DNA of 64,000 nucleotides from Isoptericola sp. AK164 (GTDB lineage: Bacteria > Actinomycetota > Actinomycetes > Actinomycetales > Cellulomonadaceae), in assembly GCF_029643425.1 (NCBI RefSeq), contig NZ_CP119106.1, positions 2,542,001 through 2,606,000 of the forward strand. The letters run 5' to 3'. The translations under genes and the position numbers were made by a program. Below the pieces are notes generated by a model. It had not been told where the DNA came from. It worked only from the letters and a program-made list of their open reading frames with translations, and ran no database searches. Below, in pieces: positions 45,555 to 64,000 of the stretch (the first letter of the stretch is position 1; the number at the start of each line of letters is the position of its first letter).

Positions 45555-45947
45555 ATGAAGCGAGTCATCACCTACGGCACCTACGACCTGCTGCACTACG
45601 GGCACATCGAGCTGCTGCGTCGCGCCCGCGCCCTCGGCGACTACCTGATCGTGGCGCTGTCCACGGACGAGTTCAACGCGGGCAAGGGCAAGGCGTCCTA
45701 CTTCTCCTTCGAGGAGCGCCGCCGCATGCTCGAGGCGATCCGGCACGTCGACCTCGTCATCCCCGAGCGCACCTGGGAGCAGAAGGCGGACGACATCCGG
45801 ATGTACCACGTCGACACCTTCGTCATCGGCGACGACTGGACCGGCAAGTTCGACGACCTCAAGCCGCTGTGCGAGGTCGTCTACCTGGAGCGGACCCCGG
45901 AGATCTCCACGACGCAGATCAAGGCGGGCCTCGCCTCCAAGAGCTGA
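45555..45947 (+). CDS. tagD: Glycerol-3-phosphate cytidylyltransferase (TagD-like)
   Basis: 130 residues, exactly the TagD size. Signature [20 protein letters not shown] (HxGH), the [11 protein letters not shown] segment, [10 protein letters not shown] and the C-terminal [12 protein letters not shown] in place of RTEGISTT. It should make CDP-glycerol from CTP and glycerol 3-phosphate, the donor for glycerol-phosphate polymers. The CDP-glycerol transferase fusion at 56851-59430 is the likely consumer. ATG 45555 is chosen over an in-frame GTG 11 codons earlier. Confidence 0.9.
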
Positions 45948-53484: not shown

Positions 53485-55545
53485 GTGCCCGACGTCACCT
53501 CCGCCCGACCGCGGCACGCCCGCCACCACTCCCCCGACGCCTCGGGCCACATCGTCGAGCTCCACGGGCTGCGCGGTCTTGCCCTCGGCCTGGTGGTCCT
53601 GTTCCACCTGTTCGGCAACGGTCGCGTCTCCGGCGGCGTCGACGTGTTCCTGGTCATCTCCGGGTTCCTCGTCACCCGCTCGCTCGTGCGTCGCGCCGAC
53701 GGGCCCGGCATCCGGCTGGGGCAGCACCTCGGCCGCACCGCCGCGCGACTCGTCCCCCCGGCCCTGGCGACCTTCGCGGGCGTCGCCCTGCTCGCCGCGG
53801 TGCTCCTGCCGCCCGCGCAGATGATCGACGTCGGCCGCGAGATCGTCGCCTCGGCGCTGTACGTCGAGAACTGGGCGCTGATCGCCTTCCAGCTCGACTA
53901 CGGGGCGGCCGGACCGACCGCCAGCCCGCTCCAGCACTTCTGGTCGCTGTCGGTCCAGGGGCAGTTCTTCCTGCTGTGGCCGCTCGCCGTGATGGCGCTC
54001 GCCGTGGTCGCCCGCCGCGCGGGCTCGACGACCGGCCAGGTCACGGCCTGGTTCGTGGCGGCGACGACGACCGCGTCCTTCGCCTACGCCGTCCACCTGA
54101 CCGCGGTCGACCAGCAGGTGGCGTACTTCGACTCCGTCGCACGGTACTGGGAGCTCGGTGCCGGGGCGCTGCTGGCGCTGGCGGCACCGCACCTCCGTCT
54201 GCCGCACGTCCTGCGCGCGGGGATGTCGTGGCTGGGTCTCCTGCTCATCGGCAGCGCCGGCCTGCTCGTCGACGGGGCGCGGCTCTACCCCGGCCCCTGG
54301 ACCCTGTGGCCGGTGCTGGGTGCTCTGCTGGTCCTGGCCGGCGCGGGTTCCACCGCGTCGTGGAGCCCGCGCCGCGCGCTGCAGGTCCGCCCGCTGCGCT
54401 TCGCCGCCGACATCTCGTACCCGCTGTACCTGTGGCACTGGCCGCTCCTGGTCTTCTACCTCCGAGCCCGGGGGTACGAGCAGGTCGGGTGGCGGGGCGC
54501 CGCGGCACTGCTGGCCCTCTCGGTCCTCCTGGCCTGGCTCACGCACCGCCTCGTCGCGACGCCCACGCGTGACCGGTCGTACCGGGTGGGCCCTCGACGG
54601 ACACTGCTGGCCGCTGCGGTGTCGACCGCCCTGGTGGTCGCCACGGGGACCGGCGTCGTCGCCGCCATGGAGCACCGGCAGCAGGCCGCCCTGGCGCAGC
54701 TGACCTCGGTGTCGCCGGAGCACCCCGGTGCCGCCGCGCTCGCCGCGGACGCGGACGACTCCCGGCCGTGGCGTGCCGGGTACCGCCCCTCGGCGGAGCA
54801 CGGGAGCGCCGACAAGCCCGCGATCATCGACGCCGACGACTGCATCCAGAAGGCCGGGGACGGCCGCGGCCGCGACGAGCTGCACGTCTGCTCGGTGCAC
54901 CGACCGCCGACCCCCGCGCGGCACGTCGTGATCGCCGGGGGGTCGCACTCGTACCAGTGGGAGCCGGCGCTGACGAGCATCGCCGAGCAGCAGGGGTGGG
55001 AGCTGACCGTCCTCGGGAAGGGCGGGTGCCGGCTCGCCGTGCGGGACGCCGGCGACGACTGCGCCCGCTGGGCGGCGGACGCGCTGGACGAGATCGTCCG
55101 CCTCGCCCCGGACGCCGTGGTCGTCACCGGGACGCAGACCCGGGCCGGGGCACCGCATCCGGGCGAGACCGTCGAGGACGAGCAGGTGCACGCGTGGCAG
55201 GAGCTGCAGGCGCACGACATCCCGGTGGTCGCGGTCCGCGACAACCCGCGCTTCGACGTCGACCCGCCCGACTGCGTCGGGCGGCACGGGCCCGCTTCCG
55301 AGCGGTGCACCGTCGCCCGGCCCCACGTCCTCGCGCCGAGCAACCCGCTGACGACGGCGACCGTTCCGGACAACGTGCACCCGGTCGACATGAGCCCGTG
55401 GCTGTGCCTCGATGACGAGTGCCCGGCCGTGGTCGGCAACGTGCTCGTCTACCGCGACGACGACCACCTCACGGCGACCTACGTCCGCACGCTCGCGCCG
55501 TACCTGCGGACGGCCGTGCAGGACGCGGTGCCGTCACTGTTCTGA
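53485..55545 (+). CDS. Acyltransferase 3 with C-terminal SGNH domain (OafA-type)
   Basis: 686 residues. The N-terminal 380 or so form a ten-helix acyltransferase-3 domain (VELHGLRGLALGLVVLFHLF, VSGGVDVFLVISGFLVTRSL, SPLQHFWSLSVQGQFFLLWP). After a short linker, an extracytosolic SGNH domain has the nucleophile in VIAGGSHSYQWEPAL and the Asp-x-x-His pair in YRDDDHLTATYVRTL, so it looks catalytically intact. Such two-domain enzymes O-acetylate surface polysaccharides. GTG 53485 has AGGAG upstream. It borders the sulfotransferase locus and could decorate the same polymer. Confidence 0.9.
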   Translation: MPDVTSARPRHARHHSPDASGHIVELHGLRGLALGLVVLFHLFGNGRVSGGVDVFLVISGFLVTRSLVRRADGPGIRLGQHLGRTAARLVPPALATFAGVALLAAVLLPPAQMIDVGREIVASALYVENWALIAFQLDYGAAGPTASPLQHFWSLSVQGQFFLLWPLAVMALAVVARRAGSTTGQVTAWFVAATTTASFAYAVHLTAVDQQVAYFDSVARYWELGAGALLALAAPHLRLPHVLRAGMSWLGLLLIGSAGLLVDGARLYPGPWTLWPVLGALLVLAGAGSTASWSPRRALQVRPLRFAADISYPLYLWHWPLLVFYLRARGYEQVGWRGAAALLALSVLLAWLTHRLVATPTRDRSYRVGPRRTLLAAAVSTALVVATGTGVVAAMEHRQQAALAQLTSVSPEHPGAAALAADADDSRPWRAGYRPSAEHGSADKPAIIDADDCIQKAGDGRGRDELHVCSVHRPPTPARHVVIAGGSHSYQWEPALTSIAEQQGWELTVLGKGGCRLAVRDAGDDCARWAADALDEIVRLAPDAVVVTGTQTRAGAPHPGETVEDEQVHAWQELQAHDIPVVAVRDNPRFDVDPPDCVGRHGPASERCTVARPHVLAPSNPLTTATVPDNVHPVDMSPWLCLDDECPAVVGNVLVYRDDDHLTATYVRTLAPYLRTAVQDAVPSLF

Positions 55546-55573: not shown

Positions 55574-56632
55574 TCAGCGACGCCCCCACACGCTCCGCAG
55601 CCGGTCGGCTGCGGCACGGGAGGCCCCCCGCACCGTCCGCCGCTCGAGCGCTGCCTCGAGCTCGGCGACCCGGCCCCGGAGCTGCCGGATCTCCTCGTCG
55701 GTGGCGGCACGCTCCCGGCGGACCTGCCGACCCGCGAGCGCGATGTCGGCCAGCCGCTGCCCGGTCGCCACCCGGGCGGCGATGTCCTTGAACGCGTCTG
55801 CGGACCACTCGGGGTCCTTGGCCAGCACCGTGTCGAAGTCCCACAGGTGCCCGAACCGCGCGAGATCGTCCGCGTAGAGCCGGTCGAGCGTCTCCCGGAC
55901 CTCGGTGGGGAAGAGCCGGCCCGCCACGGGCAGCGGCGTCTCGTTCTCGCGCGCGAGCGGACCGATCTCGCCCCGGTGGCCCTGCTCTCCCACGTGCGCA
56001 CCGAGGTCCGTGAGCAGCTTGGGGATCTCGGAGGTCTGGTACAGGTGGCTGTACGGCACCGTGTCCTCGTTGAGGAGCGACACCTGGGGGCGGAAGTGGA
56101 CGTCGCCGAACACGCGGGAGCCCTGCGGCGAGTCGAGCAGCCGGACGAAGGCGGCGAAGTCCTCGACGACGTCCTGGGTGCTCCCGGGAACACGAGGGAG
56201 CCACGGTGCGTCCCGGAACTTGTCGAACGAGTGGCGCGGGTTGCCGATGAGGAACTTCGACTGCCACGCCGACCAGACCCGCAGCCGGGGGTCGCGCACC
56301 ACGGCGAAGACGAACCAGCCGTTCTCCGGGGAGATCTGCGCACGCAGCTCGGGGTCCACCGAGACCAGCGAGTCCACCCCGCTCCACGCCGACTTGCGGT
56401 GGATCGTCTGCTGGCGCGTCGGTGCGAGGTTCATGACCTGGTGGAAGCGCTGCGGGTCCTTGCCCGTGAGCTCGGCCATCAGCCACTTGAGGCTGGTGCT
56501 GGCGTTCTTCGCGACGTTGACGAAGACGACCCGGTGGTCGGGCAGGACCCACGAGTTCCACACGTCGCCGGCGTCACCGGCGTCGCGGGGCGCGTCGTCC
56601 CGGGTCTCGATACGCCGGCGCTGCTCACTCAT
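55574..56632 (-). CDS. Sulfotransferase, type A (with C-terminal coiled coil)
   Basis: 352 residues, no signal peptide. The 5'-phosphosulfate loop is VFVNVAKNASTSLKWLM (about 36-52). The 3'-phosphate site is FVFAVVRDPRLRVWSAWQSK near residues 108-127. This is the layout of PAPS-dependent carbohydrate sulfotransferases of the sulfotransfer_2 type. A C-terminal coiled coil (EEIRQLRGRVAELEAALERR) and basic end may tether it to a complex. It is a paralogue of the 59457-60500 product. ATG 56632 is chosen to match that paralogue's N-terminus. It is divergent from the CDP-glycerol transferase fusion. The acceptor is unknown. Confidence 0.85.
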   Translation of the reverse strand: MSEQRRRIETRDDAPRDAGDAGDVWNSWVLPDHRVVFVNVAKNASTSLKWLMAELTGKDPQRFHQVMNLAPTRQQTIHRKSAWSGVDSLVSVDPELRAQISPENGWFVFAVVRDPRLRVWSAWQSKFLIGNPRHSFDKFRDAPWLPRVPGSTQDVVEDFAAFVRLLDSPQGSRVFGDVHFRPQVSLLNEDTVPYSHLYQTSEIPKLLTDLGAHVGEQGHRGEIGPLARENETPLPVAGRLFPTEVRETLDRLYADDLARFGHLWDFDTVLAKDPEWSADAFKDIAARVATGQRLADIALAGRQVRRERAATDEEIRQLRGRVAELEAALERRTVRGASRAAADRLRSVWGRR

Positions 56633-56711
56633 CTCGCTGGTGCCTCTCTCGTCGGTCCGCAGGGCCCGGGGAGGGACGCGTGCGCGTCCACCGTCCGGGT
56701 GGAGGAACCCG

Positions 56712-56717
56712 AGTCTA
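56712..56717 (-). promoter_or_regulatory. Candidate -10 element for the type A sulfotransferase gene
   Basis: TAGACT on the minus strand, about 80 bases upstream of its start. The same hexamer appears for the divergent gene at 56771-56776. No -35 boxes recognised. Confidence 0.4.
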
Positions 56718-56770
56718 GGGGTTTCCGGCGGCCACCCCGGAGAACCTGCCACCACTCCGGGCCAGCACGC

Positions 56771-56776
56771 TAGACT
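56771..56776 (+). promoter_or_regulatory. Candidate -10 element for the CDP-glycerol transferase fusion gene
   Basis: TAGACT about 75 bases upstream of ATG 56851, with GGAGG in the leader. Confidence 0.4.
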
Positions 56777-56850
56777 CCCTGGGTTGCTCCGGGCGGCCGT
56801 CGCGCTCCCGCCCGCTGCACGGAACCCGAGACCCGGCTGGGAGGCCTTGC

Positions 56851-59430
56851 ATGTCGTTCAAGCAGGCGATCGACAAGTCGCGCGAACGGTACTCGCGCGC
56901 GGTCGACTTCGAGTCGCATGCTTTCTGGCGGTCCCGTCCGATCGTGCCGGGAACCGTCCTGTACGAGTCCTTCTCCGGCAACGGCATGCTCTGCAACCCC
57001 CGGGCCGTCTTCGAGATGCTGCTCGAGGACCCCGCCTACCGCTCGTTGACCCACGTCTGGGCGCTCGACTCGACCGAGGCGATCGACGCGGCACGCTCCC
57101 GGTGGCCCGACCGGGTCCGCTTCGTCCTCAAGGAGTCGAGGGCCTACTACCGCGCCCTGGCCACCTCCCAGTACCTCGTCAACAACGCGACCTTCCCCCC
57201 GCAGTTCAGCAAGCGGGAGGGCCAGACGTACCTCAACACCTGGCACGGCACCCCGTTGAAGAAGATGGGGTACGACATGGCCGAGGGTGGGAGCAGCTCG
57301 CGCAACATCGTGCGCAACTTCGTCATGGCGGACTACCTGGTCTCCTCGAGCCCGTTCATGACGGAGCAGATGTACGCCGCCGGCTACAAGCTGCGCGGGA
57401 TCTTCCGCGGCGAGATCCTCGAGAGCGGTCAGCCCCGCACCGACGTGCAGCTCACCGAGGGCGCCGGGGTCCGGGCGCGCCGGCAGCTGGCCGAGGCGGG
57501 CCTCGACGTCGAGGGTCGCCGGGTCGTGCTCTACGCGCCCACCTGGCGAGGATCGTTCTACGCGCCGGCCGACGAGACGAAGCAGCTCCTCGAGGTCGTC
57601 GAGTCGTTGCAGACCCGTCTCGGCGATGCGTACCGGGTGCTGCTCAAGACGCACCAGGTCGCCTACGGGTTCGCCCGCTCCTCGGGATCCGGCCGCGACG
57701 TCGTCGTGCCGAACGACATCCCCACGAACGTCGTGCTCTCCGCCACGGACCTGCTGGTCACCGACTACTCCAGCATCTTCTTCGACGTGCTGCCGACGCG
57801 GACGCCGATCGTCCACTTCGCGCCGGACGCCGCGCACTACGGCGGCGCGCGTGGGCTGTACGAGGACCTCGACGCCCTTCCCGGTCCTGTGGCGACGACG
57901 CGGACCGAGCTCGGCGAGGCCGTGCTGCGGCTGGCCGAGGAGGGGCTCGACGGGCTCGAGCCCGATCGACGGGCGAACTACGACCGCTTCGTGGCCACCT
58001 ATGCCCCGCACGACGACGGCGGAGCGACGAGGCGCGTCGTCGACACCGTGTTCGGCGGCCGACCGGCCGGGGTCGTGCACCGTGACCTGGACGACGACGG
58101 CCGGACGTCGCTCCTCGTCTACCTCGGCGGGCTCCGGTCGAACGGCATCACGACCTCCGTCCTGAACCTCCTGTCGGCGATCGACCCCGACAGGTACGAC
58201 GTCTCGGCCTTCTACGGACCGCCGCAGACGCAGGACGAGATGCAGAACGAGGCACGCATCCCGTCCACGGTCCGGCTGTTCCCCCGCGTCGGCGGGTTCA
58301 ACGGTTCCAAGCGGCTGCGCAACGCCCGGCGCGCGCTGTTCAACGGACTCGACCAGACGCACTCCCGCGTCAGCCGGCAGCGGATGCAGCCCTACTTCGA
58401 GGACGAGTGGCACCGCTGCTTCGGCGACTCGCGCTTCGACCACGTCGTCGACTTCTCCGGTTACGGCCCGATGTGGCCGAACATCCTGCTCGCCGCGCCG
58501 ACCGGCCACAAGTCCATCTGGCTGCACAACGACGTCCTGGCCGACGCGCAGCGCGAGGTCGACGGCAAGCGCAACCTCGAGCAGCTGCTGCACGCCGTGT
58601 TCTCCACCTACGACCGCTTCGACTCGCTCGTCTCGGTGTCCGAGGAGCTGGCCCGGATCAACGCGTCGAAGCTCTCGGACCGTGCCCCCGCGGAGAAGTT
58701 CACCTACGCGCGCAACCTCATGGACGCGGAGCGGGTACGCCGCATGGCCGGCACGGACGTCGACGGCTCGCCGCGCCGTCCAGTCGGACCGGACGAACGT
58801 CTGGGCAAGGACCTCGTGACAGACCTGCACACGTTGTCCGACCTGTACGGGGCGCACCGGGTCGACGAGGCGTGGACGCGTCAGCAGGTCGTCCGCGCCG
58901 CCTTCGGCCACCGCAAGGGCACCAGGTTCATCACCATGGGCCGGCTGTCGCCGGAGAAGAACCACGCACGGCTCGTCCAGGCGTTCGCCACGGTCGTCGC
59001 CGCGGAGCCGGACAGCCAGCTGGCGATCCTGGGCGGCGGCCCCCTCCTGCCCGCGCTCGAGAAGCAGGTCGCGAGCCTCGGCCTCCAGGACAACGTCCGG
59101 CTGACCGGCTTCCAACCCAACCCGTACGCGGCGCTGGGCGAGGCGGACTGCTTCGTCCTGTCCAGCGACTACGAGGGCCAGCCGATGGTCATCCTCGAGG
59201 CTCGGACCCTCGGCGTCCCCGTCATCACGACGGAGTTCGGGTCCGCGAAGGGAGCGCTGGCCGACGACGAGGGTCTCCGCGTGCCCCGGGACGCCGACGC
59301 CCTCGCCCAGGGGATGCTGACGTTCATCCGGTCGGGCGTCCCCCAGCGTCCGTTCGACACCGCGGCCTACAACCGCGAGGCTCTCCGAGAGTTCTTCGCC
59401 GCGGTCGGTGCGACCGGCCGCGGCCACTGA
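56851..59430 (+). CDS. CDP-glycerol glycerophosphotransferase fused to GT4 glycosyltransferase
   Basis: 859 residues, two enzymes in one chain. The N-terminal part (about 35-400) is a TagB/TagF-type glycerophosphotransferase: YLNTWHGTPLKKMGYDMAEG at 127-146, SGQPRTDVQ, VLYAPTWRGSFY near 225 and LLVTDYSSIFFDVLPTRTPI near 300. From about 418 a GT4 domain begins (TSLLVYLGGLRSNGITTSVL) and ends with FITMGRLSPEKNHARLVQAF, AILGGGPLLPALEKQVAS and the sugar-nucleotide site SSDYEGQPMVILEARTLGV. It should add glycerol phosphate and a sugar to a growing wall polymer at the inner membrane face. No membrane helix is seen. ATG 56851 has GGAGG upstream. Confidence 0.93.
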   Translation: MSFKQAIDKSRERYSRAVDFESHAFWRSRPIVPGTVLYESFSGNGMLCNPRAVFEMLLEDPAYRSLTHVWALDSTEAIDAARSRWPDRVRFVLKESRAYYRALATSQYLVNNATFPPQFSKREGQTYLNTWHGTPLKKMGYDMAEGGSSSRNIVRNFVMADYLVSSSPFMTEQMYAAGYKLRGIFRGEILESGQPRTDVQLTEGAGVRARRQLAEAGLDVEGRRVVLYAPTWRGSFYAPADETKQLLEVVESLQTRLGDAYRVLLKTHQVAYGFARSSGSGRDVVVPNDIPTNVVLSATDLLVTDYSSIFFDVLPTRTPIVHFAPDAAHYGGARGLYEDLDALPGPVATTRTELGEAVLRLAEEGLDGLEPDRRANYDRFVATYAPHDDGGATRRVVDTVFGGRPAGVVHRDLDDDGRTSLLVYLGGLRSNGITTSVLNLLSAIDPDRYDVSAFYGPPQTQDEMQNEARIPSTVRLFPRVGGFNGSKRLRNARRALFNGLDQTHSRVSRQRMQPYFEDEWHRCFGDSRFDHVVDFSGYGPMWPNILLAAPTGHKSIWLHNDVLADAQREVDGKRNLEQLLHAVFSTYDRFDSLVSVSEELARINASKLSDRAPAEKFTYARNLMDAERVRRMAGTDVDGSPRRPVGPDERLGKDLVTDLHTLSDLYGAHRVDEAWTRQQVVRAAFGHRKGTRFITMGRLSPEKNHARLVQAFATVVAAEPDSQLAILGGGPLLPALEKQVASLGLQDNVRLTGFQPNPYAALGEADCFVLSSDYEGQPMVILEARTLGVPVITTEFGSAKGALADDEGLRVPRDADALAQGMLTFIRSGVPQRPFDTAAYNREALREFFAAVGATGRGH

Positions 59431-59456
59431 CCTTCCCGACCGACGGAGCAGAGTCC

Positions 59457-60500
59457 ATGTCCGAGCCCCACGTCGAGCTGACGACGGCCAACGCGCCGAC
59501 CAACTCGTTCGTCATCCCCGACAAGCGGATCGTCTACATGTCGGTCACGAAGGCCGCCTGCACGAGCATGCGGTGGATGGTCGCCGACCTGGCCGGGGAG
59601 GACCCCGAGTCCTTCCTGCACGGCACCGGCGCGACCCAGACCCAGCTCATGACGATCCACGGTGGTCGGGGGCGCTGGCAGCACACCCCCACGCTCGCCC
59701 AGCTCGACCCCGCCGTGCTCCGCGAGATCCGTCCCGACAACGGGTGGTTCGTGTTCGCCGTCGTCCGCAACCCGTGGAGCAGGCTCTGGTCGGCCTGGCA
59801 GTCGAAGTTCCTCGTCCAGCACGCGTTCTACCGGCGGACGTACGCCGACGAGCCGTTCTTCCCCCGTCAGCCGGAGAGTCCGCAGGACGTCGTCGAGGAC
59901 TTCCAGTCGTTCGTCGCGGCCCGCCCGTGGCTCCAGCACCCGGTGCTGACCAAGGACGCCCACTTCCGGACGCAGTCGCGCTCGGTGGCCAAGGACCGCG
60001 TGCCCTACTCCCGCGTCTACGACGTGCGCGAGATCGGGACCCTGCTCTCCGACCTGCACACCCACCTCGAGGGCCTCGGCCAGGACCAGGAGCTGTACGT
60101 CCCGCGGGCGAACGAGACACCGCTGGCCCCCGTGCCGGGACTGTTCGACGGCGCGGCGACCGGCGTCGTCGAGGAGGCCTACGCGGCCGACCTGGAGACG
60201 TTCCCGGGCTGGTGGAGCGTGGACGACCTGAAGTGCGTCGACACCTGGTCGGACGACGCCCTGGCCAACATCCGGGCCCAGGTCGCGGCCAACGAGAGGA
60301 TCTCGGCGCTCAGCGTGCGCGCCCGGGAGATCCAGGGCTCGCTCAAGGAGACCCGCAAGGAGCTGTCACGGGCGCAGGCACGGATCGCGGCGCTGGAGGC
60401 CCCGAGGTCACCCGTCCGCGCCGCCGTCCACCGCGGCCGGTCGCTCGCCGGCCGGGTCGCGGGACGACTGCGGCCGTCCCGCCGCACGACCTCTCAGTAG
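59457..60500 (+). CDS. Sulfotransferase, type A (second copy)
   Basis: 347 residues, clearly related to the 55574-56632 product. PAPS loop IVYMSVTKAACTSMRWMV (about 25-42), 3'-phosphate site FVFAVVRNPWSRLWSAWQSK, shared HFRTQ/HFRPQ and VPYS segments, and again a C-terminal coiled coil (LKETRKELSRAQARIAALEA) with a basic end. It follows the fusion gene by 26 bases in the same direction with a GGAG site, so it is probably in its operon. Its stop overlaps the convergent gene by seven bases. Confidence 0.85.
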   Translation: MSEPHVELTTANAPTNSFVIPDKRIVYMSVTKAACTSMRWMVADLAGEDPESFLHGTGATQTQLMTIHGGRGRWQHTPTLAQLDPAVLREIRPDNGWFVFAVVRNPWSRLWSAWQSKFLVQHAFYRRTYADEPFFPRQPESPQDVVEDFQSFVAARPWLQHPVLTKDAHFRTQSRSVAKDRVPYSRVYDVREIGTLLSDLHTHLEGLGQDQELYVPRANETPLAPVPGLFDGAATGVVEEAYAADLETFPGWWSVDDLKCVDTWSDDALANIRAQVAANERISALSVRAREIQGSLKETRKELSRAQARIAALEAPRSPVRAAVHRGRSLAGRVAGRLRPSRRTTSQ

Positions 60501-61120
60501 CCGAACTGCTCGTAGTCGCTGCGGTAGAACTCCCGCAGCCCGCGGCGCAGGCGGTCGGAGACCTCGACGTCGGCCGTGGAGACGCCGGCGGCCTCCTCGG
60601 GCCGCTGCGCGCGGGGTACGGTCGATCCGACACCGAGGTCGTAGACGCTGTCGAGGCGCTCGATCGCGCGGTCGAGACCGTCCTCGTACCGGAAGACCTC
60701 GCTGCCGGGCACGTAGAACTCGCTCTGCGGCCGCAGGTGGTTGTCGTGCAGGTAGGGGTTCTCGAGGTAACCCTCCAACGCCCCGGCCGCCCACCGGTCG
60801 ACCGAGGCGGCGTCGGTGCGCAGGTCACGGTAGTTGCGCATCACGTACTCCGAGCGGAACCGGGCGACGGGATCCCGCACGACCATGAAGATCGCTGTGA
60901 ACCGGTCCAGACGCAGCTCGGCCTCCAGCGCCTCCCGGTGCATGTGCTGCGGGGACGCCCGGCGGTAGCCGTTGAACCAGGGGCCCTTGGTCCCGGACCG
61001 CCGGTCGCAGTAGCTCATCCGGTAGCCGCTGGACCGGAAGAGGTTCTCGATCGAGGTGCCCCCGGTCTTGGGGACGTGGACGAAGAGGACGCTCTTGTCG
61101 TCCCGGACGAAGACAGGCAC
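60494..61120 (-). CDS. Sulfotransferase, type B
   Basis: 208 residues. PAPS loop VLFVHVPKTGGTSIENLF (about 11-28), HMHREALEA, 3'-phosphate site FMVVRDPVARFRSEYVMR, and C-terminal LREFYRSDYEQFGY. It matches short sulfotransfer_2 proteins. GTG 61120 has AAAGGG seven bases upstream. It is a close paralogue of the 62981-63601 product. It lies downstream of the GT2 gene in one direction with it and the second type B gene. Confidence 0.85.
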   Translation of the reverse strand: MPVFVRDDKSVLFVHVPKTGGTSIENLFRSSGYRMSYCDRRSGTKGPWFNGYRRASPQHMHREALEAELRLDRFTAIFMVVRDPVARFRSEYVMRNYRDLRTDAASVDRWAAGALEGYLENPYLHDNHLRPQSEFYVPGSEVFRYEDGLDRAIERLDSVYDLGVGSTVPRAQRPEEAAGVSTADVEVSDRLRRGLREFYRSDYEQFGY

Positions 61121-61176
61121 CGTCGGCCCTTTCTGTGCTGCGGATGACGCTGACGAGAGCGCGTCGCCGGACGCGC

Positions 61177-62949
61177 TCAGCGGAAGAGGATCGCGCTGCG
61201 ACGCCCTTCGAGGACGACGCGCACCTGCTGGTCGGGCTCCCACCGCGCCCGGGTCGTCACGCGGACGCCCTTGCGGTCGACCCGTAGCCGGGCCGGCGAG
61301 AGCGAGCCGTCGATCTCCACCTCGGCGTCGATCGCCGTCCGGCCCCGCCCCACGACCTTCGGCAACGAGATCGTCGTCACGCCGAAGGACCGTGACACGT
61401 CGGCAGGGGTCGGCTGTCCCGTCCCGACGACGGTGCGGACCCGGGACCCCAGGTCGACGGCCAGGAACCCCGCCCTCGTACGGTAGACGACACCGGTCGT
61501 GCCGTCGAGGACGGCGCCGGAGGCGCGGTGGTGGAGCGCAGGGACGCGGTGCGTCGCGCCGAGGCCCAGGCCCGTCATGCGGAAGTACAGGTCCTGGACC
61601 TCCCGGTCCAGCGGGCCCCCGAGGGCCGCCGCGAGCGGGTCGACGACGGCCTCGGCCGTCAGGACGAGCGTCAGCTCCCCGTCGCTCTCCTGCGAGAACG
61701 TCGCCGACCCGGTGGTCGGCTGGATCCAGTCCACGCTCGAGTCCCGTCCGCGGACGACGACCTCGGGGACGAAGGTCGACGGGTCGGGGACGACCGCGCT
61801 GTCGCCGACAGCGGCCAGCAGCTCCTCCGGGAGCGCACGGACCACGCTGCCGCTCGCCTGCCGCCGGAACCGGACGGGCTCTCCCCGGCCGTCGACCAGC
61901 CGGGCCTCGACGGCCACGTGGAGCCCGTCCTCGGCCCACCGGGCCGAGGACGCCGTCGCCGCGAGCCGGGTCCCGTGGTCGATGCGCGAGAGCCGGACGA
62001 GCGCGTCGACCGCGCCCTGGCGCAGCAGGGTCGACCGGATCCGGTCGGCGGGGGTCAGCAGGCGGTCGATCTCGACGGGGAAGTACCGCAGCAGCCCGGT
62101 CACGCGGTCGATCAACCGGTCGCGGAAGTCGTCCGAGTACCGGTGGAAGCCACCGGCCAGTCGTTCGAGGATCCGGCTGCGATACCACCTGATCAGCAGC
62201 TGGTCCTTCTTCTCGGACGGAGGCATGGCGACCACCGGCTGCAGCGACGACTCGAAAGAGCTCCAGTAGACGTCGAAGTCGTAGCCCCCCTTGTGGCTGT
62301 TGTCGTCGTAGATCATCCAGCGGTAGCACGGGTAGTCCGCCAGGATCCCGATCCGGTCCGTCCGGGACCAGACCTCGGCGTTGTAGCTGAAGTCCTCGAG
62401 GCGGACCGGGCCCTCGGGGAACGCGATGCCGTGCTCCAGGAGGAAAGACCGCCGGTACAGCTTGTGGGGCGTGATGCACTGCAGCCGCTGCTGGTCGAGC
62501 CGGGTCCGCCCCTCCTGCGCCGGCCAGGACCGCCAGCCCGGGGTCAGCCACCCGGACACGACCTCCTTCGGGTGCACGACGTCCAGGTCGTGCCCCGCGG
62601 CGAACTCGTACATCCTGCGCAGCGCCTCGGGGAACAGGTAGTCGTCGTGGTCGGAGAAGAACACGAACTCCGCCTCCGTCGCGGCGACCGCGACGTTGCG
62701 CGGCCGCCCGGGCCACCCGGAGTTCGGGATCCGCTCGACGAAGACGTTCGGGTGCTCGGCCGCCACGGCCGCGAGCCGCTCGTAGGTGTCGTCGGTGGAG
62801 CCGTCGTCGACGAACCGCAGCTCCCAGTTCTCCGCGTCCCAGCGCTGGGCCAGGACCGACGCGATCAGGTCGTCCAGCTCAGGGGGCGAGTTGTAGGCCG
62901 CGACGACGACGCACACCTTGGGTCGCTGCTTCGTGGCGGGTGCGCTCAC
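61177..62949 (-). CDS. Family 2 glycosyltransferase with C-terminal extension
   Basis: 590 residues. The GT-A domain fills the first 280 or so: VCVVVAAYNSPPELDDLIAS, ELRFVDDGSTDDTYERLAAV and the metal-binding FFSDHDDYLFPEALRRMYEF. The rest is a beta-rich region of unknown type (VRFRRQASGSVVRALPEELL, VRVTTRARWEPDQQVRVVLE), as found in wall-polymer glycosyltransferases. No membrane helix. It sits between two type B sulfotransferase genes, all on the minus strand, and may build the sugar chain that they sulfate. Confidence 0.88.
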   Translation of the reverse strand: MSAPATKQRPKVCVVVAAYNSPPELDDLIASVLAQRWDAENWELRFVDDGSTDDTYERLAAVAAEHPNVFVERIPNSGWPGRPRNVAVAATEAEFVFFSDHDDYLFPEALRRMYEFAAGHDLDVVHPKEVVSGWLTPGWRSWPAQEGRTRLDQQRLQCITPHKLYRRSFLLEHGIAFPEGPVRLEDFSYNAEVWSRTDRIGILADYPCYRWMIYDDNSHKGGYDFDVYWSSFESSLQPVVAMPPSEKKDQLLIRWYRSRILERLAGGFHRYSDDFRDRLIDRVTGLLRYFPVEIDRLLTPADRIRSTLLRQGAVDALVRLSRIDHGTRLAATASSARWAEDGLHVAVEARLVDGRGEPVRFRRQASGSVVRALPEELLAAVGDSAVVPDPSTFVPEVVVRGRDSSVDWIQPTTGSATFSQESDGELTLVLTAEAVVDPLAAALGGPLDREVQDLYFRMTGLGLGATHRVPALHHRASGAVLDGTTGVVYRTRAGFLAVDLGSRVRTVVGTGQPTPADVSRSFGVTTISLPKVVGRGRTAIDAEVEIDGSLSPARLRVDRKGVRVTTRARWEPDQQVRVVLEGRRSAILFR

Positions 62950-62980
62950 GCCGTCCTCCTCGTGCGGTCGGGCGTCATCC

Positions 62981-63601
62981 TCAGTACCCGAACATCAGGT
63001 GGTCGAGGGCGTAGAAGTCCCGGAGCCGGTCCTCCAGCTCGGGGCTGATCCGCACCTCGCGACTGGACACGCCGCTGGTCTTCTCGCTCGTCCGGTCACG
63101 TCCCACGTGGGGCGGCAGGTCGAACCCGTGCTCGGCGTTGAGGCGCTCGACGACGGCGTCCAGCCCGTCCTCGAACGCGAAGACCTCGGCACCGGGCACG
63201 AGGTACTCCGCCTGCGGGCGGATGTGGTTGCCCAGCACGAACGGGTTCTCCTCGTACCGGGCCAGGATCTTCCGGGCCCAGCGGTCCACCGCGCGCTCGG
63301 AGGTGTCCACGTCGGTGCCGCGCCGCCAGACGTACTCCGAGCGGAAGCGCGCCAGCGGTTCGCGGACCACCATGAACACGGCCTCGAAGGACTCCAGCAC
63401 GAAGTTCTCCTGGAGCATCTCCCCGTGCATGTGCTGCGGCGTGCACCAGCGGAAGTTGTTGAGCGTGCCGGGCCCGATGCGCCCGTCGTGGTACGCGATC
63501 TGCCAGCCGGCGGCCTTGAAGTGGTTCTCGATCGACGACCCCCCGGTCTTGGGGACGTGGATGAAGAGCACGCCACGGCCGTCCTTGGTCAAGATCGGCA
63601 T
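62981..63601 (-). CDS. Sulfotransferase, type B (second copy)
   Basis: 206 residues. PAPS loop VLFIHVPKTGGSSIENHF, TPQHMHGEMLQ, FMVVREPLARFRSEYVWRRG, NPFVLGNHIRPQAEYLVPGA and the C-terminus LRDFYALDHLMFGY. Its motifs and length match the 60494-61120 product almost throughout, which indicates a local duplication. ATG 63601 has GGAAAGG upstream. It lies downstream of cysN, with a hairpin between them. Confidence 0.85.
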   Translation of the reverse strand: MPILTKDGRGVLFIHVPKTGGSSIENHFKAAGWQIAYHDGRIGPGTLNNFRWCTPQHMHGEMLQENFVLESFEAVFMVVREPLARFRSEYVWRRGTDVDTSERAVDRWARKILARYEENPFVLGNHIRPQAEYLVPGAEVFAFEDGLDAVVERLNAEHGFDLPPHVGRDRTSEKTSGVSSREVRISPELEDRLRDFYALDHLMFGY

Positions 63602-63663
63602 GGGCTGGGACCTTTCCTCAGTGCCGCGAGCCACGACGGACACCTCGGCCGGACGTCATGACA

Positions 63664-63695
63664 GGTTCCTCGGCACCGACCGGTGCCGAGGAACC
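63664..63695 (-). terminator. Hairpin after cysN
   Basis: A perfect 15-bp inverted repeat (63664-63678 with 63681-63695) about 20 bases after the cysN stop on the minus strand. It may limit read-through into the sulfotransferase genes. Confidence 0.65.
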
Positions 63696-63713
63696 GTCTG
63701 TTCAGGGGATCGT

Positions 63714-64000
63714 TCAGGACGCGTGCGGCAGGCCGCCGATCATCCCGGCGGCGACGGTCTTGTTCGTCGACTCGTCGACCAGGATGAACGAGCCCGTCTG
63801 CGGGTTCTGCTGGTACGGGTCGACGAACAGCGGCTGCGTGACCCGGAGCTGGATGCGGCCGATCTCGTTGAGCTTGATCTCGGTCGCCTCCTCGTCGCGG
63901 TGCAGCGTGTTGACGTCGACGCGGTAGTTGATGTCCTTGACCATCGCGCGCGCCCACCGGGTCGTGTGCTTGATCGCGTACTTCTTGCCCGGGACGAGCG
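63714..64000 (-). CDS. cysN: Sulfate adenylyltransferase subunit 1 (3' end only)
   Basis: The last 95 codons of a gene that continues beyond the window. The visible protein runs LVPGKKYAIKHTTRWARAMV, DINYRVDVNTLHRDEEATEI, NEIGRIQLRVTQPLFVDPY and ends GGLPHAS. This is the C-terminal beta-barrel region of CysN, the GTPase subunit that with CysD makes adenosine 5'-phosphosulfate. The product is the precursor of PAPS, the donor for the four sulfotransferases beside it. Whether cysD and an APS kinase lie upstream cannot be seen. Confidence 0.88.
   Translation of the reverse strand, partial: LVPGKKYAIKHTTRWARAMVKDINYRVDVNTLHRDEEATEIKLNEIGRIQLRVTQPLFVDPYQQNPQTGSFILVDESTNKTVAAGMIGGLPHAS

Follow-up and report, generated by a model that had tools for sequence, protein, structure and literature searches.

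The locus at positions 55,574 to 64,000 of the window (the 64,000-nucleotide stretch of Isoptericola sp. AK164 DNA that was analyzed; family Promicromonosporaceae) is read here, with a probability of about 0.47, as belonging to a wall-glycopolymer island whose predicted product is an O-sulfated poly(glycosylglycerol phosphate) resembling teichoic acid. In the pathway envisaged, TagD would supply CDP-glycerol; the fused enzyme encoded at 56851–59430 would add glycerol-3-phosphate (TagF-like domain) and hexose (GT4 domain) in alternation, as does Cps3D; a TarS-like GT2 enzyme would attach a further sugar; CysD/CysN and CysC would make PAPS; four sulfotransferases would place sulfate on sugar hydroxyls before export, with CysQ removing PAP; and a TagGH-type ABC transporter would export the chain. 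The same sulfotransferases may act also, or instead, on an adjacent Kdn polymer. Observation extends to the genes and domains present, the conserved active sites, the linkage and its recurrence; every enzymatic step, the order of the steps, the identity of the sugars and the sulfated position are predicted.

Gene content of the locus

Gene calls by codon usage and a Pfam domain search confirmed every item of the preliminary description, with correct coordinates: a fused glycerophosphotransferase-GT4 gene, a GT2 gene, four sulfotransferase genes, the 3' end of cysN and an acyltransferase-SGNH neighbor were all found. The tagD gene claimed to lie 11 kb away is present at 10.9 kb (45555..45947, + strand; PF01467, 1.9e-25) and encodes a glycerol-3-phosphate cytidylyltransferase, the source of CDP-glycerol, that scores 184.6 bits with the NCBI equivalog model TIGR01518 (cut-off 165.4). 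The bordering AT3-SGNH O-acyltransferase (53485..55545, +; PF01757, 2.6e-20, and PF19040, 7.3e-25) could possibly O-acylate a surface polymer. The locus itself opens with a type-B sulfotransferase gene (55574..56632, –; 352 aa; PF03567, Sulfotransfer_2, 6.6e-12), followed by the polymerase gene (56851..59430, +; 859 aa) and, 26 bp downstream of it, a second type-B sulfotransferase gene (59457..60500, +; PF03567, 9.7e-12). A type-A sulfotransferase gene with a GTG start (60494..61120, –; 208 aa; PF03567, 9.8e-16, and alignment) is next, and then the gene for a teichoic-acid-type glycosyltransferase, a GT2 enzyme with a TarS linker (61177..62916, –; PF00535, 2.9e-23; PF22181, 1.3e-17), for which the solved glycosyltransferase structures 8bz4 (E 4.1e-70) and 5tze (E 1.2e-22) are matches. 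The second type-A gene (62981..63601, –; PF03567, 2.8e-10), whose position is kept in relatives, follows cysN on the same strand after a gap of 112 bp; only the 3' end of cysN (63714..64000, –) is in the window, and the gene, encoding a 436-aa CysN above the cut-off of equivalog NF003478, reaches 65024 in window numbering.

The end of the window thus truncates the locus, and related genes extend ~27 kb beyond it: cysD and cysQ (–), TauE, cysC (+), a TagH/TagG exporter and Kdn-type genes, among them a fusion for CMP-Kdn-type synthesis and genes for sialyltransferase-like enzymes. The remaining intergenic gaps are short (cysQ-cysD, –4 bp; cysD-cysN, 3 bp; sulfotransferase-GT2, 64 bp; GT2-sulfotransferase, 56 bp). 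A promoter scan gave 0 promoters, and a terminator scan gave 5 candidate sites, where shuffled sequences averaged 2.1; neither result was useful. TagD, the TagF-like domain, the TarS-linker GT2 and the TagGH-type exporter are shared with the wall teichoic acid pathway of Firmicutes, from which the present set differs in that the polymerase is fused to a GT4 domain and sulfotransferases are added.

The fused polymerase

The protein carries a TagF-like domain (Glyphos_transf, PF04464, residues 28–401, 1.6e-76) followed in the same chain by a GT-B domain of the GT4 type (Glycos_transf_1, PF00534, residues 689–839, 2.1e-29), which is the architecture of Cps3D (PDB ID: 8qoy), the poly(galactosylglycerol phosphate) polymerase of the Actinobacillus pleuropneumoniae capsule. 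Homology to Cps3D spans both domains (E 4.3e-103). The CgoT and CgaT active-site set (two histidines, SS..D, R/K, EX7E) is present, and 15 of the 16 active-site residues named in PMC11666461 are identical, as read by eye from the alignment to Cps3D, the exception being Arg607, which is Lys. Domain order, both active sites and homology across both catalytic parts are therefore held in common with the Cps3D/TagF-like capsule polymerases, and support the assignment of the predicted product as a glycerol-phosphate/glycosyl polymerase homologous to Cps3D. The TPR domain, however, which according to PMC11666461 is in the chain of all CpsD homologues analyzed there, and according to PMC5974469 is found in 'many' TagF-like polymerases, is absent; homology to Cps3D begins at query residue 32 and leaves no space for it, so that the protein is classed as a TagF-like polymerase and not as CpsD proper. 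The setting differs as well: the gene lies in an actinobacterial wall locus that also encodes sulfotransferases and enzymes of sulfate activation, neither of which is mentioned for Cps3D in the accessible text.

At E ≤ 1e-60, 6 of 220 other genomes of the family (G139, G161, G171, G172, G193, G216) match the fused protein, counting three (G171, G172, G193) in which the match falls into two parts within a single longer frame. Of the 7 family genomes with this strong match, 6 have TagD (E ≤ 1e-20), compared with 13 of the 214 others (Fisher p 1.2e-6). Among 396 genomes of the phylum only the strain's own gave a match at E ≤ 1e-60; that search therefore informs the base rate only.

Sulfotransferases and sulfate activation

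Across the 3.58 Mb of the genome PF03567 matches four genes, all above the Pfam cut-off, and these are exactly the four of the locus, so their grouping there is not due to chance. Two alignments and a pattern scan find the 5'-PSB lysine and the 3'-PB R..S motif, which we take to mark PAPS-dependent sulfotransferases, in all four proteins. The type-B protein encoded at 55574..56632 has the conserved PSB lysine and an RDP..S form of the 3'-PB motif; its predicted structure has a pLDDT of 84.9, and in a fold search with this one model the best 50 hits listed are sulfotransferases or their kin, at weak scores (best E 2.8e-3, TM ~0.3).

Within the family PF03567 is found in 12 of 221 genomes, all of them among the 18 members of the genus, and in 10 of these 12 a sulfotransferase gene is the immediate same-strand downstream neighbor of cysN. 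A tie between the sulfotransferases and the glycerol-phosphate polymer within the genus is not supported, presence of sulfotransferase and of TagD being unassociated (Fisher p 0.32). Five genomes with sulfotransferases (G135, G140, G143, G145, G146) give no fused-protein (P0001-type) match, and 6 of the 12 give no TagD. The reciprocal comparison speaks against the proposed polymer: of the six other genomes named above that share the fused protein, G139 alone has PF03567. Contig NZ_JABEZU010000002 of Isoptericola halotolerans KCTC 19046 carries both a 69% homologue of the fused protein and two PF03567 genes. A division into two sulfotransferase lineages, one for each polymer, was also considered, and the type-A tree, a poorly resolved fan, gave no decision.

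Nearness of cys genes proves little by itself, because three members of the genus (G148–G150) that have neither PF03567 nor the Kdn fusion keep cysNDQ and cysC in place; proximity to cysN alone was accordingly rejected as a sign of a sulfated polymer. Beside these cys genes neither an exporter nor a TagF-like match is seen in G149 (assembly 74% complete) or G150, and in G148 (86% complete) cysC is next to a diverged pair of exporter genes and a GT2 gene. The genome's only CysH-type gene encodes the CC..CxxC cysteines, which mark APS reductases; if the enzyme is one, PAPS is not needed for assimilation, a point in favor of the sulfated-polymer reading. The protein scores higher with TIGR02055 (205 bits) than with TIGR02057 (155 bits), both under their cut-offs, and the argument is weak because it exceeds the cut-off of the broader phosphoadenylyl-sulfate reductase model PRK02090.

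Recurrence outside the genus

Either of two peptide patterns located 52 sulfotransferase loci in all: 7 in Isoptericola/Krasilnikoviella (L116–L120, L126, L135), 16 in other Actinobacteria (L121–L125, L127–L134, L138, L144, L146), which alone enter the co-location count, and 29 in other organisms, nearly all Proteobacteria (L136, L137, L139–L143, L145, L147–L167). In 6 of the 16 a full-length homologue of the fused protein lies within 10 kb, and this linkage covers five genus-level lineages in three families. Given the per-genome base rate of 6/220 family genomes, the binomial p is 2.6e-6 by locus (6/16) and 6.1e-6 by lineage (5/11), values that are indicative only, since related loci are counted and several contigs are truncated. 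Two further loci, from Arthrobacter, hold cysNDQC, a sulfotransferase gene, tagD and TagGH together; in Arthrobacter castelli cysN-D-Q, TauE, cysC, the sulfotransferase gene, tagD and TagGH fit within ~11 kb. The 29 loci outside Actinobacteria match neither the fused protein nor tagD; one of them (L143) has NeuB-type matches, and another (L165) a weak cysN match.

The preliminary description held that regular occurrence of the sulfotransferases away from polymer genes would speak against its proposal, and such occurrence is seen in part. Seven of the 16 outside loci (4 from Serinicoccus, 1 from Microbacterium sp. STN6, 2 from Nocardioides) have no glycerophosphotransferase, tagD, Kdn-fusion or clear cys match in the DNA available. 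A laxer tblastn search of these seven adds only ABC-ATPase matches and weak stretches that are CysD-like (L131; 25%, 6e-5) or cysQ-like (L144; 1e-6).

Alternative explanations

A considerable, if minority, possibility is that the substrate of the sulfotransferases is a Kdn-teichulosonic acid, the product of the neighboring genes (the CMP-Kdn-type fusion, polysialyltransferase-like enzymes, GT2s and TagGH), the glycerol-phosphate chain being separate and unsulfated. Such a polymer is known chemically in the same family: the wall of Promicromonospora citrea 665T contains an anionic, sulfated Kdn-teichulosonic acid with Glcp3SO3 and 7,9-pyruvylated Kdn, described in the available part of PMC6801904 as a structure, lacking phosphate and without genes. 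The Kdn-type genes of the island comport with this. The HAD part of the CTP_transf-HAD-NeuB fusion gives matches to the models for KdsC and KDN-9-P phosphatase that stay under their cut-offs, and the nonulosonate is predicted to be Kdn rather than another; the best three solved folds for the g64 model (pLDDT 91.6) are bacterial poly- and sialyltransferases; and the order cysNDQ-cysC-TagHG-g64-DUF6716-GT2-Kdn enzymes is kept in all four mapped genomes of family group g19, and the 13 genomes listed for that group all give a Kdn match. Inside the genus the Kdn fusion occurs in 11 of 12 genomes with PF03567 and in 3 of 6 without (Fisher p 0.083). However, those three (G138, G141, G142) are Kdn-positive without the sulfotransferases, the g19 genomes lack PF03567 too (should g19 be Promicromonospora, the sulfotransferase there is of another family), no pyruvyltransferase turned up in the scanned genes of the strain's own locus, and the five outside lineages join sulfotransferase and polymerase with no Kdn-fusion match, on contigs several of which are short. 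The earlier proposal that all of the genes serve one polymer thus gains from the Cps3D homology, TagD and the outside linkage, and is nevertheless unproven because of the Kdn genes in the island, which lie beyond the window, and the sulfated Kdn polymer in the family.

It is improbable that the sulfotransferases modify a lipid, a secreted glycan or a protein and were placed here by chance or for nearness to cysDN; the seven outside loci without glycerophosphotransferase, tagD or Kdn fusion would fit such a target, but all four PF03567 genes of the genome lie within the polymer locus, one of them 26 bp from the polymerase gene, and the link to polymer genes recurs in other genera. The O-sulfated glycosylglycerol phosphate reading also has a variant, not exclusive of it and itself unlikely, in which the TagF-like domain transfers another unit, such as hexose phosphate or ribitol phosphate. 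Hexose phosphate transfer is possible for group-2 TagF-like enzymes according to the accessible text of PMC5974469, three genomes of the genus (G137, G144, G147) have TagF-like proteins and no TagD match, and G161 has a fused homologue and no TagD match. Against this, the strain has the TagD equivalog, TagD is statistically tied to the fused protein, and the latter has the WHG motif of glycerol-3-phosphate polymerases, where hexose-phosphate enzymes have a QHG variant (PMC11666461).

Biological significance

A sulfated teichoic-type product had been called non-standard and perhaps new. No sulfated teichoic acid was found in the titles and abstracts of the largely open-access literature searched; a sulfated wall polymer as such is already on record in the family. 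In the accessible text of PMC13390465, the wps-1 cluster of Actinoplanes missouriensis is likewise a polysaccharide cluster from an actinomycete and includes two predicted sulfotransferases, each from a different family; sulfation is a prediction there as well, but the route is Wzx/Wzy, the role is in sporangium formation, and a glycerophosphotransferase is not mentioned.

It is conceivable, at somewhat less than even odds, that several actinobacterial lineages share a dedicated sulfated-teichoic-acid module (a Cps3D-type polymerase, a TarS-like GT2, one to four sulfotransferases and PAPS supply) that would combine phosphodiester and sulfate-ester charge in one polymer. In Gram-positive walls, charge, metal binding and recognition are determined by teichoic-type polymers. 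Through this locus the sulfation of wall polymers in actinobacteria becomes accessible at the level of genes; the one structure reported in the literature consulted, that of P. citrea, comes without genes in the text available. If the reading is true, a sulfated teichoic polymer would give the wall a charge that is independent of phosphate.

Gene content of the wall-glycopolymer locus

Genes in the window (contig positions 2542001-2606000) and in 58 kb on its right were called by codon usage, and their domains were assigned by Pfam. Every item of gene content in the preliminary description of the window end was borne out, and the island extends beyond that end, as shown by gene calls and Pfam on the right flank of this genome (one contig, 3.58 Mb). 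Past the window end lie cysN, cysD and cysQ (-); TauE, then cysC with a 240-residue N-terminal part (+); a TagH-like ATPase with an ABC-2-type permease slightly below the Pfam cut-off (-); more TagF-like proteins, a DUF6716 protein, GT2 enzymes and a POLYST-like protein; a mannose-6-phosphate isomerase, a UDP-galactopyranose mutase and a GlfT2-like enzyme; and a 699-residue CTP_transferase-HAD-NeuB protein of probable Kdn type (the Kdn fusion; L004:16314-18413, -). The order on one strand is cysQ-cysD-cysN-ST-GT2-ST (ST, PF03567 sulfotransferase), with gaps of -4, 3, 112, 64 and 56 bp, and on the opposite strand the TagF-like-GT4 fused polymerase (56851..59430) precedes an ST by 26 bp.

The genome has two PF01507 genes, the locus cysD and a CysH-type gene adjoining sulfite reductase; inspection by eye of 20 kb surrounding the latter revealed neither an ATP sulfurylase nor an APS kinase. 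The CysH-type protein carries cysteines characteristic of APS reductases, and the APS-reductase model scores above the PAPS-reductase model, although neither reaches its cut-off. The cut-off of the more general model PRK02090, 'phosphoadenylyl-sulfate reductase', is exceeded. These cysteines and scores are suggestive only, but cysC and cysQ may therefore serve sulfation, and cysDN both uses.

The fused polymerase

Both catalytic parts of the fused protein align with Cps3D (PDB 8qoy), at an E-value of 4.3e-103, TagF following behind at 1.5e-37; unlike Cps3D, the fused protein has no TPR part. The Cps3D product is reported to be a galactose-glycerol-phosphate polymer (PMC5974469, PMC11666461), and the Cps3D residues named in the literature are F391, H479, G480, T481, P482, R542, A573, R607, H609, S647, S648 and D652, with R982, K987, E1059 and E1067 (PMC11666461). 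In an alignment read by eye, where chain positions are those of the paper plus 3, the fused protein shares 15 of these 16, R607 being replaced by Lys.

At E <= 1e-60 the fused protein occurs in 7 of 221 family genomes (AK164 itself, G139, G161, G171, G172, G193 and G216) and, among 396 phylum genomes, in AK164 alone. TagD is found in six of the seven, versus 13 of the 214 others; five of the six matches are above the equivalog cut-off and that of G216 below, G161 has no TagD match, and in G193, G171 and G172 no more than about 2 kb separates TagD from the fused-protein match.

Distribution of the sulfotransferases

A whole-genome profile search gave four PF03567 matches in AK164, all in the present locus. 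The domain occurs in 12 of 221 family genomes, all from this genus (12 of 18), and in 27 of 396 genomes of the phylum sample, the other 26 being of the same phylum with none from the same class. Ten of these 12 PF03567-bearing genomes (AK164, G136, G137, G139, G140 and G143-G147) have an ST as the next gene 3' of cysN, on its strand; two genes intervene in G135, and in G134 (I. chiayiensis) the PF03567 gene is 266 kb away from cysC. The G134 and G141 loci have no PF03567 near cysN. Near cysN these two encode proteins with a KTGTT loop (L072:15342-16589, +, in G141; L073:17061-18203, +, in G134), presumably a sulfotransferase-like motif; a Pfam scan gave no match, and a guess at motif level would make them sulfotransferase-like.

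A scan that used eight type-A STs as queries found 52 loci in the genome collection, 16 of them actinobacterial and outside the genus. Six of the 16 contain a homologue of the whole fused protein (45-50% over 844 residues or more); they come from Janibacter corallicola, two Nocardioidaceae MAGs, Segeticoccus, Marihabitans and Humibacter. Both MAGs and Segeticoccus also have homologues of the locus GT2, and both MAGs a type-B ST. In Segeticoccus (L125:956-10505) two divergent fused-polymerase copies each adjoin a GT2 homologue, with one sulfotransferase alongside. Two Arthrobacter loci combine cysNDQ-cysC, ST, tagD and TagGH, and a Nocardioides locus (L132) has a TagF-like protein (33%). Seven loci (Microbacterium, four Serinicoccus, two Nocardioides) have none of these genes; Pfam identified three of their neighbours, of which the peptidase and the transporter belong to Microbacterium and the dehydrogenase to Serinicoccus. 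PF04464 is present at some place in the genome for 17 of 24 ST-locus records searched (L136 left out). The proposal of one sulfated glycerol-phosphate polymer, against which ST homologues regularly lacking polymer genes would count, is thus weakened in part, because ST loci outside the genus occur both with and without such genes. Co-occurrence is weaker in the reverse direction, PF03567 being present in one (G139) of the six other fused-protein family genomes.

Kdn-type genes and the possible sulfated polymer

The Kdn fusion or its parts (E <= 1e-40) occur in 65 of 221 family genomes, in 18 as a one-piece match (one with an internal stop) and in 47 as two pieces or partial. The matches listed include 13 genomes of genus g19, probably Promicromonospora; the four mapped share the order cysNDQ, cysC, TagHG, g64, DUF6716, GT2, Kdn enzymes. 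The conserved Kdn-core protein g64 (L004:10611-11624, +; 337 aa) had no match in a Pfam scan and has a predicted GT-B fold (pLDDT 91.6), the nearest folds being a bacterial polysialyltransferase (5wcn, 2.2e-7), a sialyltransferase and then other GT-B enzymes, with TM-scores of 0.4-0.5.

A third ST-like protein, 458-473 aa long, is encoded in two g19 genomes and in Isoptericola sp. BMS4 (L197:11037-12431, +; L199:11113-12489, +; L094:8049-9470, -); in both g19 genomes its gene lies between cysC and TagH. Its PSB loop, HLPFSGGTS, has Phe in place of lysine, an RDPVSQIRS motif is present, and the one copy scanned had no Pfam or NCBIfam match; it is a candidate for the enzyme that sulfates the Promicromonospora polymer.

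Pyruvyltransferase genes are found in the G139, G144 and G147 loci, and none was found among the AK164 locus genes scanned (those up to g80, except g71 and g79). Pyruvyltransferase and LicD matches are joined in one protein in two Isoptericola wall loci (L088:16495-18879, +; L094:13807-16233, -). Promicromonospora belongs, like Isoptericola, to the Promicromonosporaceae, and a review reports that the teichulosonic acid of P. citrea 665T is composed of Glc, Glc 3-sulfate and 7,9-pyruvylated Kdn (PMC6801904); genes of a kind matching that description are present in the AK164 island. Overall, this is a genuine and coherent locus for a wall glycopolymer, to which sulfation genes are linked. Of the possible targets of its sulfotransferases, the glycerol-phosphate chain has the best support, and the Kdn polymer is a serious second candidate.
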